Shown piece by piece: positions 1,336-43,590 of a stretch of DNA of 44,023 nucleotides. The stretch lies in NCBI GenBank assembly GCA_021162615.1, contig JAGGYH010000084.1, forward strand, positions 1-44,023. Direction: 5' to 3'. Numbering within the stretch: position 1 is the stretch's first letter; the number at the start of each line of letters is the position of its first letter. Below the pieces are notes generated by a model. The model had not been told where the DNA came from and ran no database searches. It saw only the letters and a program-made list of their open reading frames with translations. Position numbers and translations under genes: made by a program. The stretch comes from Candidatus Aminicenantota bacterium (lineage in GTDB: Bacteria > Acidobacteriota > Aminicenantia > Aminicenantales > Aminicenantaceae).

Positions 1336-1354
1336 CCTGGACTATTCATAAAAA
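1336..1354 (+). repeat. Solitary R1 terminal motif
   Basis: CCTGGACTATTCATAAAAA matches the left terminal motif of the R1 elements (CCTGGATTATTCATAAAAA at 38139-38157) with one mismatch. No partner end is visible nearby. It lies just upstream of the beta-propeller gene start. Confidence 0.5.
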
Positions 1355-1520
1355 CAGCCGGATCCTTCCTGATGAACAATCCCGATAATGACTGTAAACA
1401 TTATACGGGAACGAATTTGTTTGGTTCAAATAGAAAGATAAACTGGATAGATTTTCCTGTTGATAGTCCGTGACTTTGACAAGAGAGACCTCGGCTTTTT
1501 TCATCGGGATGTGTCTCTAT

Positions 1521-12935: not shown

Positions 12936-13120
12936 AACCTGACCTATTCATAAAAAATGAATATCGTCCTTTTTTTATCTTACAGGCAAGCCGATATGAA
13001 ATTCAGGTGTGGCCTGTGCTCCCTTCAGATTTTTAACGCCATTCTCCTTCGTTTTTCTCGGCTCCTGCGTAACTTCCCCCGTCCGTGGGTGATCCTGGTC
13101 ATTCATAAAATATGGTTGCG
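12936..13120 (-). repeat. R1 repeat copy beside the truncated kinase
   Basis: AACCTGACCTATTCATAAAA at 12936-12955 is the reverse complement of the right terminal motif seen at 31677-31694. The interior (12980-13090) is almost the reverse complement of window bases 20-140, including GAAATTCAGGTGTGGCCTGT and CCCCCGTCCGTGGGT. A second terminal-like motif, ATCCTGGTCATTCATAAAA, occurs at 13091-13109 in the same orientation. No coding potential. Confidence 0.8.
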
Positions 13121-13208
13121 TTTCCAACACATTTACCATGATAGGCTCTCTTATCATTCTTAATTCATTAAGAACATACTTCTTACGTTAGTACATATAA
13201 TAATTTTA

Positions 13209-13477
13209 CTTTATGCAGCCATATTTTACCTTACAGGCGAGCCGATCTCACAGCATCTGCTTTGTTGCAGGGCATTCGCGGTGAAGGACCACAGCTTCAT
13301 ACCCTGCGCCTCGCATCTGCAGCAAGCTTGGCTCGTGAATAACCAGGATCGACTTCCTGCATCCGAAGGCTAAATCTTCAATGTCGCCACGTCCACACCT
13401 GAATTTCGCAAGGTAAAAAGGTGGTGTGGCCTGCGCTCCCTTCAGATTTTTAACGCCATTCCTCGCACTGTGTGCTT
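13209..13477 (-). repeat. Composite R1 repeat copies upstream of ssrA
   Basis: Bases 13212-13352 are nearly the reverse complement of the left 140 bp of the element at 17082-17342 (blocks TGCAGATGCGAGGC and GAAGCTGTGGTCCTTCACCG), ending with GTGAATAACCAGGAT, the inverted left terminal motif. Bases 13390-13475 then carry the other interior module (CACACCTGAATTTCGC, TTCAGATTTTTAACGCCATT). Two copies, or fragments, are therefore nested. They end about 5 nt before the ssrA -35 box. Confidence 0.8.
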
Positions 13478-13522: not shown

Positions 13523-13867
13523 GGGGGCGAATTGGGTTCGACGGAGGTAAAGAGACTGAGGAAGCATGTCGAGGCCCCACCCACCTCGTTAATCAGGTGG
13601 AAATTTACAAGTGCAGAATCAATGCCATTAGCTGCCTAAAAAGAGGTATGCCGTTTCTTTTGCGTTTTCCTGCAGCGCTCAAGAAACGCCGACTAGCAGG
13701 ATAGCGAACCTGGCATGCTCCTAGCCAGGCAAGTGAGTTTTTTTGGAGCTGGTTTCAAGGTAGTTTTCCTCTTTGACAGCCTTGAAGCGAGACAAAAGAA
13801 GAGGATAAACATGTAGCGTCCTCTCGTTGAATGCCTTCGGACGCGGGTTCGATTCCCGCCGCCTCCA
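13523..13867 (+). ncRNA. ssrA: Transfer-messenger RNA (tmRNA)
   Basis: A one-piece tmRNA of about 345 nt that rescues stalled ribosomes. The 5' end GGGGGCGAATTGGGTTCGACGG is diagnostic. GGGGGCG (13523-13529) pairs with CGCCTCC (13860-13866) as a 7-bp acceptor stem with one G-U, and a T-arm GCGGGTTCGATTCCCGC precedes it. The discriminator A is 13867; CCA is not encoded. The tag frame starts with GCA at position 91 of the RNA, as in E. coli, and reads A-E-S-M-P-L-A-A before TAA (13613-13639). The ending LAA is the usual degradation signal. Eight encoded residues is short for a tag (E. coli encodes ten). Confidence 0.95.
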
Positions 13868-13908
13868 TAAAGATTGTTTTTGGATAAAGATAGATTGAGC
13901 TAGAAAAA

Positions 13909-15686: not shown

Positions 15687-17003
15687 ATGAATAAACTGAC
15701 CAGGGTTGTTATCGTCGGATTTCCAAATGTAGGGAAGTCGACTTTATTCAACCGGCTTCTCAGAGAAAAAAAGGCCATTGTGCACTCTTTACCGGGCATG
15801 ACACGAGATATGAACTCAAGTGTGTGCACTATAGGTGATAAAAAATTCGAACTTGTGGATACGGGCGGCTTTTTTGACTCTGAATCAAATCCTCTCTCAG
15901 CTCAAGTCAAACTCAAGGCATGGGAGGCTTCAAAACAGGCTGATGTACTGATATTCATGCTTGATGCCAGAAAGGGGATCGTGCCTTCCGAGCAGGAGCT
16001 CTTTATCTCCCTAAAAAAGCTTGATAAGCCCATAATCATAGTGGTTAATAAAATGGACTCACCTGCAATGGAAGAGAAGTATCTATGGGAATTTTTCAAG
16101 CTGGGCGGGGATTTTCTCGTCCCCGTATCCGCAGAGCATAAACGGAATATAGAACTTCTTGAAGAGGCGATCGCCAACGCTATACCTGGTATGTCTTATA
16201 ATAAACAAGAGTTAAGACCTATAAAAATAGCAGTTGTCGGCAGGATCAATGTAGGCAAATCTTCTATAGTCAATCTCATAATCGGTCAGGAAAAGATTAT
16301 TGTGAGTGAGACTCCCGGAACCACAAGAGATAGTATTGACACGGTTGTTTTAAGGTACGGTCGTCCTTTTTGTCTTATTGATACGGCAGGGATTCGAAAA
16401 TTAAGCAGGACCAGGGATGAAAAAGAAAAGGCAGGTATCATCAGAGCAAAGAAAAACATCAGCAAAGCAGATGTGGTTTGTCTTTTAATGGATTCCACTG
16501 AATTTCCGACCCGCCAGGATGCGGCCATAGCCCATTTGGCGCATGACTCAGGAAAACCTCTTATGCTTGCCCTGAATAAATGGGATTTAATTCCCTCTAA
16601 AGAAAAGGCTTATGAGGCGTTTAAAATAAAGGCTTATGAAAGACTTGATTTTGTTTCATATGCGCCTCTTCTCTTTGTATCAGCTCGCACCGGGAAGCGG
16701 GCTGTTAAAATACTGGATTTAGCTGAAGAGATTTATAACAATGCAAAGACGTGGGTTCCTACTCCCCATCTCAATAAATTTCTGGTTTCCATAACCCGGG
16801 AGAAACCGCCTCTATCCAAAAAGAAAAAGAAGATAAAGATCAAGTATATGGTGCAGCAGAGTATCCTTCCTCCCACTTTTATTCTTTTCACCCACTCCAG
16901 AAGCGCGCTTTTACCTTCCTATGAAAAATATTTTTCAGCTCATTTAAGAGAAAAATTTAATATATGGGGGACTCCCATACGGCTTCGCCTTAAAAGGAAC
17001 TAG
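15687..17003 (+). CDS. der: Ribosome-assembly GTPase Der (EngA)
   Basis: A 438-residue protein with two tandem GTPase domains and a C-terminal KH-like domain, the standard Der architecture; Der acts in 50S subunit maturation. The first G1 motif is GFPNVGKST (residues 8-16), with DTGG and NKMD following. The second is GRINVGKSS (about 182-190), with DTAG and NKWD. The KH-like tail spans about 355-438. It begins 47 nt after the GerMN gene. The length is normal and nothing appears missing. Confidence 0.95.
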   Translation: MNKLTRVVIVGFPNVGKSTLFNRLLREKKAIVHSLPGMTRDMNSSVCTIGDKKFELVDTGGFFDSESNPLSAQVKLKAWEASKQADVLIFMLDARKGIVPSEQELFISLKKLDKPIIIVVNKMDSPAMEEKYLWEFFKLGGDFLVPVSAEHKRNIELLEEAIANAIPGMSYNKQELRPIKIAVVGRINVGKSSIVNLIIGQEKIIVSETPGTTRDSIDTVVLRYGRPFCLIDTAGIRKLSRTRDEKEKAGIIRAKKNISKADVVCLLMDSTEFPTRQDAAIAHLAHDSGKPLMLALNKWDLIPSKEKAYEAFKIKAYERLDFVSYAPLLFVSARTGKRAVKILDLAEEIYNNAKTWVPTPHLNKFLVSITREKPPLSKKKKKIKIKYMVQQSILPPTFILFTHSRSALLPSYEKYFSAHLREKFNIWGTPIRLRLKRN

Positions 17004-17081
17004 GATGTGAAAACATCAGGTATGTTTTACTTGACTTTAACGAGGCTTTTTATTATAAATTCAAATTACTGACGTGAATTA

Positions 17082-17342
17082 TTAACCTGGATTATTCACA
17101 AGTCGAGGTTGCTGCAGATGCGAGGCACAGGGTGCGAAGCTGTGGTCCTTCACCGCGAGTACCCTGTAACGAAGCAGATGCAGTGAGATCGGCTTGCCTA
17201 TATGGTAAAAAAATGGCGATTAAAATGAAAGTGAAAACAGACAAAGATATTTCAGTTGTCCTTTCTGTAGAAAGCATGTATATCCTTAAAGGCAAAACAA
17301 AAAAATGCTCATCGCCATTTTTTTATGAATAGTTCAGGTTAA
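17082..17342. repeat. Complete R1 MITE-like element
   Basis: A 261-bp element bounded by TTAACCTGGATTATTCA (17082-17098) and TGAATAGTTCAGGTTAA (17326-17342). These form imperfect terminal inverted repeats beginning with TTAA. The left 140 bp match, inverted, the copy at 13212-13352. The right end carries CATCGCCATTTTTTTATGAATAG, as at 31662-31684. A frame across it gives only a 66-residue peptide with no family resemblance, so it would need a transposase acting in trans. TTGTCC (17256-17261), a 17-nt spacer and TATATC (17279-17284) could form a promoter pointing at the TPR gene. Confidence 0.82.
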
Positions 17343-17374
17343 CTTGAATAAAGATAAAGATTAAGGAGGTCATA

Positions 17375-18400
17375 ATGTCTCTAAAAAAGATGAATCCCGC
17401 TCTGATTGCCGTGTTAGCTGTCATTATAGTTTTTGCATCGGTAGGCTGTGAAAAGCTTAAGGTAAACAAATTGCAAGCAAATCATTATTTTATCAAGGCC
17501 AATCAGGCTTTTTCAGAGCAAAAGTATAGAGACGCCATAGAAAATTATGAGAAGGCTTTAGAATTAAATCCAAATTTGGTTCAAGCGCACCGTTTTTTGG
17601 GAGAAAGCTATAAGGCTGTCTTTAGCCCGGGAGTAGAAACTGAGAGAAACATGGAGCGTGCGGATAAAGCTCTTGAGGCTCTGAAAAAAGCATATGAGAT
17701 AAGTCCAGAGAATGAAGAGATTATCCATTCATTGGCGGACATGTATGATAAATTGAGAAATTTTGAAGAAGCTGAAAAATTGTTTTTAAAGATTTTGGAA
17801 ATGAATCCTACCAATATGAGCAATTACTATGTTGTGGCTGAGTTCTACAAGAAATATGCAGGCAGTAGAAGCGAGGAAGAAGAGGGAGAAAAGGCTGAAA
17901 ACGGGGAAAAAACACCTTTTGAAAAAGCAGAACAGATGTATTTAAGAAGAATCGAGCTGGATCCTGAAAATCCTCAGGGTTATGCCTATATTGCCCAGTT
18001 TTATGAAGATTTAGAAATGAGTGTGAAAAGAATAGACCAAGCCTATTTTTATCATGATAAAAGGACTGACTTAGAACCTGATAACCCGGCTGCCTGGCTT
18101 TCTAAAGGAGTGAACAGATGGTCCAAGGCTTACAGGCTTCAGAATAGGCTTTCCCGGGCTCAGCGTCTTCAGGCTGCTAAAGAGAGCGAAAGCGCCCTTC
18201 TTAAAGCGAGTGAACTGGATCCCAAGTATCCGGAACCTTATTCTTGGTTGAGTGTCATATACCAGAGCGTGCTGGCTAAAATAGACCCGGACAGAGCTCA
18301 ACGCTATATTCAGGATGGCCAAATGTATATAGAGAGATATAAAGAAGCAAGAGAGGCTGAGGCAGAAAGACAAAAATTAGCCCAAGAACTTAAAAAGTAA
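17375..18400 (+). CDS. TPR-repeat lipoprotein
   Basis: A 341-residue exported protein. The N-terminus is a lipoprotein signal ending at Cys25 (FASVGC), so it should be anchored to a membrane. The rest is tetratricopeptide repeats: QAFSEQKYRDAIENYEKALELNPN (44-67), ALKKAYEISPENEEI, then NFEEAEKLFLKILEMNPTN, with an acidic Lys/Glu insert at about 168-185 and further repeats beyond. TPRs mediate protein contacts; the partner is unknown. AAGGAGGT lies 6 nt before the ATG. The gene starts 33 nt after the R1 element and ends before a strong terminator, so it is probably a single-gene unit. Confidence 0.87.
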   Translation: MSLKKMNPALIAVLAVIIVFASVGCEKLKVNKLQANHYFIKANQAFSEQKYRDAIENYEKALELNPNLVQAHRFLGESYKAVFSPGVETERNMERADKALEALKKAYEISPENEEIIHSLADMYDKLRNFEEAEKLFLKILEMNPTNMSNYYVVAEFYKKYAGSRSEEEEGEKAENGEKTPFEKAEQMYLRRIELDPENPQGYAYIAQFYEDLEMSVKRIDQAYFYHDKRTDLEPDNPAAWLSKGVNRWSKAYRLQNRLSRAQRLQAAKESESALLKASELDPKYPEPYSWLSVIYQSVLAKIDPDRAQRYIQDGQMYIERYKEAREAEAERQKLAQELKK

Positions 18401-29266: not shown

Positions 29267-29822
29267 TGAGTACCTGGTGGCATGTAAGTTGTAGATTTTC
29301 AGCTTAAAATAAACAAGGTCTCGATAGCCATAAGCTCTTCACATCCCATGTACTGCAGACCCCGCAGCGCTTCTTGGATCGAACAGCCTCCAAGTACAAA
29401 GCGCCGCCTTTTTGCCAGAATCTTAACTGATGAAATCCATAAAGGCCCAAAGCATGATATAACAATAACAGGGATATCGTTATTCCTCCTTTTTGTAAAT
29501 AGTTTTTTTCAATGAGGAATTTAATACGGTGTCCCCCTTTTTTTCAATCCCAGGTATCCATTTCCGTGATGAACCAGAAAAAAATCTCCCTTGTCCCTGA
29601 AATATGGGATTAAAATATTACATATATTCTGATAGTTCCTCAGCACAGGCTGTTCAGCAGGAACTGTCAGCCGGGAGTTTTGCAGAATATTTTTAAAGTT
29701 AAGACATAACAAGCTGGTAAAGCCGATATTGCTATGTCCTCATCCCAAATGTCAAACGGATCTGTATCTTGTAAATCGCCACATCATAATGTATATTACT
29801 CTGGGATATTAAAAACAGCATC
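29267..29822. other. Long spacer with a decayed minus-strand reading stretch
   Basis: No intact gene. On the minus strand, about 29305-29465 reads open without a proper start codon and gives a peptide containing KRRRFVLGGCSIQEALRGLQ, faintly like the end of a STAS domain; AAAGGAGG lies upstream of it. This may be a gene remnant. A repeat shared with 38019-38086 sits at 29571-29640. Nothing else was recognised. Confidence 0.4.
29571..29640. repeat. Second dispersed repeat (R2), copy 1
   Basis: Similar to 38019-38086: both have ATCTCCCTT, CCCTGAA, GGGA and the identical 24-mer core AATATTACATATATTCTGAT plus AGTT (29614-29637 and 38061-38084). The CTCCC/GGGAG segments form an imperfect hairpin. 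Confidence 0.6.
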
Positions 29823-31611: not shown

Positions 31612-31694
31612 TCTTGTTAATATAATCTTGCATGTCGTTGGAACAAAATGAATAATAAATACATCGCCATTTTTTTATGAATAGGTCAGGTTAA
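31612..31694 (+). repeat. R1 right-end fragment upstream of homoserine dehydrogenase
   Basis: CATCGCCATTTTTTTATGAATAGGTCAGGTTAA (31662-31694) is a near-perfect right end. The preceding 50 bp match the element at 38135-38287 (AATCTTGCAT, GAACAAAATGAATAATAAAT). No left end was found upstream, so it is a partial copy. TTAATATAATCTTG is duplicated just before it (31604-31630), giving two TATAAT-like boxes. The rest of the spacer 31421-31611 holds nothing I recognise. Confidence 0.75.
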
Positions 31695-38018: not shown

Positions 38019-38086
38019 AAAAGAGATCTCCCTTCGTCCCCCTGAACTAAGGGAGTTTAGAATATTACATATATTCTGATAGTTGC
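38019..38086. repeat. Second dispersed repeat (R2), copy 2
   Basis: Counterpart of 29571-29640. CTCCCTT (38028-38034) and AAGGGAG (38049-38055) are inverted arms around CGTCCCCCTGAACT, followed by the shared 24-mer core. No gene covers 37832-38301; this repeat and the R1 copy fill most of it. Confidence 0.6.
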
Positions 38087-38134
38087 TCATCCGCCATAGA
38101 GAGCTGAGCCTGAGGAGGAGGGGGGGATTGCTAA

Positions 38135-38287
38135 TTAACCTGGATTATTCATAAAAAAATGGCGATTGAAAATAAAAATCATAACAAGAAAAATGTGCAG
38201 AGATTGGTTCTTGATAAAATCTTGCATATCGCTTGAACAAAATGAATAATAAATACATTATCATCTTTATGAATAGGTCATGTTGAT
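38135..38287. repeat. Short complete R1 element upstream of the M24 peptidase gene
   Basis: About 153 bp from TTAACCTGGATTATTCATAA (38135-38154) to TGAATAGGTCATGTTGA (38270-38286). ATGGCGATTGAAAAT follows the left end, as in the longer element at 17082. The right half matches 31612-31690. It contains no gene and ends 15 nt before the peptidase start. Confidence 0.8.
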
Positions 38288-42259: not shown

Positions 42260-42439
42260 TCTGGATGATGAACGAGTCGAGGTTGCTGTGATATTGCGAA
42301 GAACAAAGTGATGAAGCCGTCTCATTGGAAAACGAAGCATATTGAGATCACTACGTCGCTGCGCTCCTCGTGATGACATGAGGAACGACAGCTACATCTG
42401 AATGTCGCAAAGGTGCGGGCTGATTTTATGAATAACTAG
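42260..42439. repeat. R1-related element with an internal REP-like hairpin
   Basis: The left end TCTGGATGATGAACGAGTCGAGG resembles CCTGGATTATTCACAAGTCGAGG at 17087-17109. The right end TTTATGAATAACTAGG resembles the inverted left terminal motif. Within it, 42281-42318 and 42345-42382 are imperfect inverted arms (one reads GTCGCTGCGCTCCTCGTGAT). The sequence type recalls hairpin repeats common in uncultured bacteria. The GT87 gene stop codon at 42436-42438 lies inside its right end. Confidence 0.65.
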
Positions 42440-43590
42440 GAGATTTTGCGGAAGCGGAGATATACAAGATACAACACCAATATCAAGAAGTTGACCGTAA
42501 TAACGGAAAGAGACATGAACGAGTCGTACAGTTCCTTTCCCATCAGGTCATAGAGTGAAAAAAATATGACACATAGGTTTATGACAAGAAGAATCTTTCC
42601 TGCTTTTGGGAAGGATGAAAAGTGATATAAAATGATCATAAGGCCGGAAAAAGCCATCAGAAGAGTGTAGTCCCAACCTAGAGGAGAGACCAGGGGTATG
42701 CAGAGGAGGAGGAGCGAAGACTCCAGTGCAGTGGGGGATGTGACCTGGGACCGTTTCTTCATAACGAAAAGAACAACAAGGGCCAGTCCTAAGACACAGA
42801 CCACAGCTGGATACACAGCCCATCCGGCACTGTTTGTCCATTTGGGAAAAAAGGCAAAGATTGAGATGTTATCCTGTGTGGACAGCAGTCTTGGGGTGGA
42901 TTGAGAAAGAGTAGAGATCCATTCCTTAAAAACTTCCCTGTTTCCATTCCACCCATAGTAAAGAGCGGGTGCGGCAAGGAACAGGCAGATGGATAGGAAG
43001 CCTGAAATAAGCGGGACGATTTTTTTCCTTAAAATGAAATAAGGGAAAAATATGAGAGCATAAGGTTTCAGTATAACTGCAGTCCCCCATAGGATTCCCG
43101 AGGCAGCTTCCAGTTTTATGGTATGTTTTTTTTCAGATCGGATCAGAAATACGGTCATGATAAGAAGGAGCGCTGTGATTAACGCATTGATCTGCCCTAG
43201 TTCGATTTCCCGGAAAAAATATCTGGCCAAAACAAGAAAAGCAAGAAAAAGAGACCATCTGACAGGGCGTTTATCTTCGGGAAAAAGGTTCCTGGAGAGC
43301 CCTATGATGGCGGCTGAACTCAGGATCACAACGATGTACCAGACGGCTTTGGCAAGATCCAAAGGGAGGTAGGATAAGGGTGCATAAAGGATGGCCGCAG
43401 GTGGCGGGTATTTAAACATGTAGTGTTCATCTTCGACTCTGTAAAGGGTTTCCCCCCATGTCAGTCTTTTTCCTGCGGTGTAGTTGACTTCAAAATCGAC
43501 CATGCTGGATCTGACTCTAGCAAAAAACAGAAAGGCCAGCGCACTTATAAGAGTGATAAGGACCAGCGTTTTTATGAGCGTTCTTTTCAT
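42436..43590 (-). CDS. GT87-like (DUF2029) membrane glycosyltransferase
   Basis: 384 residues with about nine transmembrane helices. SSMVDFEVNYTAGKRLTWGETLYRV and MFKYPPPAAILYAPLSYLPLDLAKAVWY are the DUF2029/GT87 signature, whose Asp in DFEVNY is thought catalytic; mycobacterial members are polyprenyl-phosphate mannosyltransferases. LKPYALIFFPYFILRKK and SPLGWDYTLL follow in family order. The donor and acceptor are unknown here. The stop codon is in an R1-type repeat end, so the C-terminus may have been trimmed or replaced by the insertion. AAAATGGCGG lies near the start without a clear ribosome site. Confidence 0.82.
   Translation of the reverse strand: MKRTLIKTLVLITLISALAFLFFARVRSSMVDFEVNYTAGKRLTWGETLYRVEDEHYMFKYPPPAAILYAPLSYLPLDLAKAVWYIVVILSSAAIIGLSRNLFPEDKRPVRWSLFLAFLVLARYFFREIELGQINALITALLLIMTVFLIRSEKKHTIKLEAASGILWGTAVILKPYALIFFPYFILRKKIVPLISGFLSICLFLAAPALYYGWNGNREVFKEWISTLSQSTPRLLSTQDNISIFAFFPKWTNSAGWAVYPAVVCVLGLALVVLFVMKKRSQVTSPTALESSLLLLCIPLVSPLGWDYTLLMAFSGLMIILYHFSSFPKAGKILLVINLCVIFFSLYDLMGKELYDSFMSLSVITVNFLILVLYLVYLRFRKIS

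Follow-up and report, generated by a model that had tools for sequence, protein, structure and literature searches.

Comparative evidence suggests an undescribed structured domain in IS1380-type MITEs of Candidatus Aminicenantes

What are the short repeats that recur throughout the 44,023-nucleotide stretch of DNA analyzed here (the window), how do they move, and why do their interiors fold? An earlier note on this DNA had listed the places where they occur and had read them as a dispersed MITE-like family; genome and window comparisons confirm that all of these places are real and mutually related. The focal copy is an intact element of 253 bp (17086-17338), which runs from left to right on the + strand, has matches genome-wide and folds strongly. 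It is framed by TTAA on the left (17082-17085) and on the right (17339-17342), the two halves of a target-site duplication. The terminal inverted repeats are CCTGGATTATTCAC on the + strand (17086-17099) and CCTGAACTATTCAT on the - strand (17325-17338). Between them lie a left module, termed A (17099-17198, + strand), which alignment, covariation and folding identify as a long covarying hairpin, and a right stem with its left arm AAAAAAATGGCGAT at 17207-17220 and its right arm ATCGCCATTTTTTT at 17311-17324, both on the + strand.

Other copies lie elsewhere in the window. The contig starts inside a repeat, a truncated element with a different module, termed B (1-188, + strand). A composite on the - strand (12938-13477) consists of a module-B element that is interrupted by a nested module-A element (13094-13347, - strand) with the right stem AAATATGG/CCATATTT; the same A-in-B composite is also present on three further contigs of this genome (C94, C106 and C24). 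On the + strand there are, in addition, a right-end fragment followed by TTAA (31617-31690), a 144-bp element without the GC-rich module, which has the right-type stem at both ends and the flanks TTAA/TTGA (38139-38282), and a degenerate element (42260-42440) whose left end is a variant (TCTGGATGATGAAC) and whose interior is of a third kind. A solo right-type end, CCTGGACTATTCATAAAAA, follows TTAT at 1336-1355 (+ strand) and is an additional end remnant. Three interior layouts can be distinguished, with module A (253 bp in total), without a module (146 bp) and with the larger module B, and all three are represented inside the window. The modules do alternate between copies, as had been proposed for two swapped units; they are better described as two versions of one folded domain. 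A candidate widespread repeat that resembles part of the copy at 42260 was rejected, with just 3 matches in 802 kb.

Next we examined where the elements begin and end. The elements start on the left with CCTGGATTATTCAC and close on the right with CCTGACCTATTCATAAAAAAATGGCGAT; the true termini are CCTG...CAGG. Among 34 close facing end pairs in the sample from the element's own genome, 15 have identical 4-bp flanks, compared with a mean of 5.4 and a maximum of 14 in 5000 shuffles; in the other 19, i.e. in more than half, the duplication is imperfect. When TTAA/TTAA pairs are excluded, 8 of 27 pairs still have identical flanks (2.2 in shuffles; p=0.0004). In relatives the same holds for 14 of 53 end pairs, against 2.5 in shuffles, and 41.5% of the flanks fit YTAR compared with 1.2% of the background. 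The excess of identical flanks, which persists without the TTAA/TTAA pairs, and the preference for YTAR together indicate that TTAA is the target and not a part of the element. The target-site duplication measures 4 bp with the consensus YTAR; consistent ends do exist, and TTAA lies outside them, which corrects the boundaries given in the earlier note. In G001, a genome from the same genus, both flanks of 17086-17338 are adjacent and the element is missing; at this one site examined the junction differs additionally by a 13-bp indel, so that it demonstrates a clear absence and not an exact empty site. No copy encodes a transposase, as had been noticed from the outset. The repeats are short, lack a transposase gene, have inverted ends, occur in high copy number, duplicate their target and are polymorphic for insertion; their classification as MITEs is thus supported.

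The number of copies was estimated in the draft genome to which the window belongs (2.85 Mb in 146 contigs, 93% complete), an assembly that is broken by repeats. The focal element has 44 strong blastn matches there, many of them at contig ends; the repeat thus helps to explain why many draft contigs end inside an element. A 17-base end pattern with up to 2 mismatches was found 204+193 times (397), while the reversed pattern used as a control gave 9+9 matches (18). A sequence profile run on 802 kb of stretches from this genome detected 61 loci, which occupy 1.06% of the sequence. Extrapolation from this sample together with the end counts implies some 200 elements genome-wide, so the family is far from the few copies that would have spoken against the MITE reading. 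Pairwise identity among the full-length copies of the sample reaches a maximum of 98% with a median of 85%; some insertions are hence fairly recent and most are not. Across all records, nearly all matches of the end pattern come from Candidatus Aminicenantes MAGs.

Elements without a transposase depend on a partner, and the earlier note had proposed looking for a full-length relative with the same ends. Such a relative exists. The locus L213, in genome G046, contains an intact IS1380 transposase of 446 aa (NF033539 IS1380 equivalog, 2e-119; PF13701, 8e-157) inside a 1626-bp element with the ends CCTGAATAATTCATAAAAAAAGC and CCTGATTTATTCATAAA; the second end, opposite CCTGAATAATTCATAAAAAAAGC, can also be written CCTGATTTATTCATAAATT. 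Both ends match the end motif of the MITEs, and one of them also has the A-tract. The flanks of this IS copy are not identical (TAAA/TTTA). Partial or deleted IS copies with ends of the L213 type occur in two further genomes (G021 and G045). Furthermore, contig C15 of the window's own genome harbors two internally deleted copies of the L213-type IS, C15:26248-26480 with a CTAA duplication and C15:23750-23942, which both join IS positions 152 and 1558 and which share their left end with the MITEs. The ends of L213 and these deletion derivatives tie the MITE ends to IS1380. An internal deletion of an L213-type IS does not account for the 253-bp interior; in the sample only the ends match. A search with the PF13701 profile found no IS1380 transposase in the 93% complete draft of the window's genome, and matches were obtained in 17 of the 38 genomes of its family. 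An L213-type element is therefore the likely candidate for mobilizing the MITEs, presumably in trans as judged from the shared ends.

Several other candidates for this role were rejected. The IS1380 copies L214, L215, L217, L219 and L230 have different ends or none that match. A 2.4-kb segment with facing ends and TTAA on both sides (C75:4075-6509) was considered as an autonomous copy, and its ORFs, inspected by eye, include no recognizable transposase. The five DDE_Tnp_1 fragments or genes of the same genome would be the obvious source if a different transposase, e.g. IS5- or IS701-like, mobilized the family and the match to IS1380 were a coincidence. YTAR sites are also duplicated by other families, e.g. 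IS5- or IS701-like elements. None of the five is enclosed by these ends as an element of its own, however, while the IS1380 element fits the end motif on both sides and the deletion derivatives have the left end of the MITEs; we consider mobilization by another transposase highly improbable. Two observations were made in passing. The segment C75:4075-6509 (L109) apparently encloses, by eye, a ribbon-helix-helix/PIN pair and a gene for a thioredoxin-like membrane protein; it may be a cargo unit mobilized through the MITE ends, or else a pair of unrelated remnants. L217 and L219, from the relatives G010 and G004, form a second IS1380 subgroup, and the inverted ends around L219 (CCCAAATAATCGGATAAG) are unrelated to the MITE family.

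The interior was analyzed on an alignment of 47 copies of module A, which were collected by sequence profile. RNAalifold predicts a single long hairpin, in which 97.2% of the cells are paired and 15 pairs have changed on both sides; a control with slid positions gave just 22-42% pairing. Double changes occur in 72 cells, compared with 17.6 in shuffled alignments, and none of 500 shuffles reached this number. Full-length copies gave covariation similar to module A alone. Related copies may exceed shuffles even without structure; because kinship alone can have this effect, the evidential weight lies with how many pairs have changed on both sides and with the recurrence of the result in other families. 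The right stem is retained while its sequence has been replaced: it reads AAAAAAATGGCGAT in most copies, AAATATGG in the nested copy and AAAACGCCGG in another family.

The fold has a preferred strand. The window copy 17086-17338 has a folding energy of -94.9 kcal/mol (z -7.8), against -70.5 (z -4.7) for the complement. The consensus energy of module A is -35.5, against -14.5 for the complement; that of module B is -48.8 against -28.1, with 97 G-U versus 6 A-C deviations. Two other families contributed 24 copies, which were picked with the covariance model and are hence biased toward its fold; their values are -58.1 and -19.8. In module A, deviations at Watson-Crick pairs are G-U in 60 cases and A-C in 13, an excess that is partly built in by fold prediction under RNA rules; at pairs predicted from both strands the counts are 20 and 6. 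Since the support for the fold is far better on the left-to-right strand, selection probably acts on this strand in the form of RNA or of single-stranded DNA, two possibilities that the data do not separate. A known structural RNA was rejected as the identity of the element: the Rfam 15 scan of the window at gathering thresholds detected the tmRNA only, and a lenient scan of 16980-17400 gave a best E of 0.64. The suspicion that the shared blocks belong to a structural RNA is in part justified, in that the interior does fold, but it matches no known RNA and the fold sits inside a mobile element. Together, these results suggest an IS1380 MITE family with an undescribed structured domain, whose function we infer below.

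A covariance model of the left module (R1) matches 48 of the 94 genomes of the order. Of the 38 genomes in the window's family 34 have a match, and further matches come from some genomes of two other families; in a phylum-wide sample of 396, none beyond the order was matched. Carriage by phages or viruses was rejected, given that blastn found no match in phage records and that viral contigs contained no exact match to the pattern. In G055, from another family of the order, the folded module occurs on contigs C3, C5, C10 and C15 in pairs or triplets about 150-190 bp apart, a spacing that would fit clustered insertions or tandem multiplication of the elements.

We consider it very probable that the repeats are non-autonomous IS1380-family MITEs, moved in trans, and that their interior fold is under selection at the level of RNA or single-stranded DNA. 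An IS1380 element would supply the transposase in trans, and this enzyme would recognize the CCTGNNNTATTCAY ends, excise the element and insert it at YTAR targets with duplication of 4 bp. The left-to-right strand is predicted to fold as a closed Y with paired ends, a long left hairpin (A or the larger B) and a right stem of A-tract and T-tract. Transcripts through an inserted copy would then fold compactly, which may reduce the harm of insertion or may serve the element's own spread; this is the account that we prefer. In ordinary IS1380 MITEs, the same covariation might also arise without selection, as a by-product of correction between hairpin arms at replication (template switching at quasi-palindromes). 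The replacement of right stems in both arms (AAAAAAATGGCGAT, AAATATGG, AAAACGCCGG) is what such correction would produce, and the lack of an orientation bias would also fit. Arm correction tends toward perfect palindromes, however, while here internal loops persist and so do G-U pairs (one pair is UG in 37 of 47 copies), and three sets show a strand asymmetry of the fold; we regard this reading as unlikely. Somewhat less doubtful is a left module that is a non-coding RNA gene with a job of its own, as an sRNA or a protein-binding RNA, which came from the host or from a parasite and was captured and dispersed by IS1380 ends. The occurrence of a same-fold module in 48 of 94 genomes would fit, as would the fact that two unlike interiors (A and B) both fold and that the element could yield a self-contained hairpin RNA with a stem plus T7 at its end. 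Most of the inspected copies from other families start at IS1380-like ends or remnants, however, with no clear free-standing host gene among them; the + strand has no promoter-like site above chance, and Rfam gave no match. As a tentative proposal, the left module may represent a new class of structured non-coding RNA turned mobile domain, which has at least two forms (A and B) between identical IS1380 ends and is under selection at the RNA level, and it may aid the persistence or spread of the element, e.g. through binding to a host protein or to the transposase.

The position of the elements relative to genes bears on whether terminating transcription or insulating neighboring genes might be the main reason for their retention. 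The right stem ends in a T run and the elements are mostly intergenic: only 8.6% of their bases fall in ORFs, against a coding density of 89.7% in the 802-kb sample. For 54 elements the gene setting is tandem in 37 cases, divergent in 15 and convergent in 2, whereas about 6 convergent settings are expected from intergenic length. About 90 bases lie inside the right stem, which sets it apart from an intrinsic terminator, and a terminator scan makes no call. Cis-regulation through orientation was likewise rejected, with 34 sense versus 23 antisense in tandem settings, a near random distribution that is not significantly skewed. With neither an orientation bias nor an enrichment between convergent genes, a role in mRNA or in termination is unsupported by position, and we judge the terminator or insulator reading improbable. 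The position argues against a general role as 5' leader or terminator and favors selection that is linked to the element as such.

How does the preferred reading, MITEs of the IS1380 family with a selected fold, compare with known systems? MITE interiors are usually regarded as free to decay. BOX, RUP and ERIC/RU are likewise dispersed intergenic repeats with hairpins, a likeness of type; BOX is also modular, and the ends and hosts of all three differ from those of the Aminicenantes MITEs. The terminal repeats of the IS1380 family (NCBIfam NF033539, Pfam PF13701), in the form found in the L213 IS, are common to the MITEs, which differ in that they have no transposase and, except for the C15 deletion derivatives, an interior unrelated to the IS. 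The 4-bp, AT-rich duplication is close to the 5 bp that are reported for IS1247 (PMC3281130). Prokaryotic MITEs are known as small, high-copy, intergenic elements with terminal inverted repeats, whose transcripts are predicted to form stem-loops; the review that describes them reports T-box-like motifs in BOX and does not mention IS1380 (PMC10969869). A MITE with a stem-loop transcript is thus already known as a type (PMC10969869), and what is new is the undescribed structured domain in IS1380 MITEs, with a fold that is kept by compensatory change across genera and families and not merely predicted for one sequence. The titles and abstract openings of the open-licence papers searched describe no IS1380 MITE family of this kind, and the titles of those that name both MITEs and Aminicenantes are unrelated. 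The eukaryotic relative of IS1380 is piggyBac, for which IS1380 transposases serve as an outgroup (PMC10813416); it has the TTAA target in common with the MITEs, which differ in their degenerate target (YTAR), their bacterial host and their lack of a transposase. The family draws attention to an IS1380 element that targets YTAR and is related to piggyBac. In at least three bacterial families, compensatory changes have maintained the interior fold, with a matching transposase in few genomes. Selection on RNA, or on single-stranded DNA, inside a non-autonomous mobile element can thus be put to the test in this family, and annotation gains an RNA motif that had not been described.

Two further features of the window lie next to or outside the elements. 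A tmRNA gene (13523-13870) adjoins the composite element, and ARAGORN assigns to it the short tag peptide AESMPLAA. A separate 33-bp repeat (TTAAAATATTACATATATTCTGATAGTT) occurs at 29610-29642 and at 38057-38089, outside the elements, and its two copies are 94% identical.
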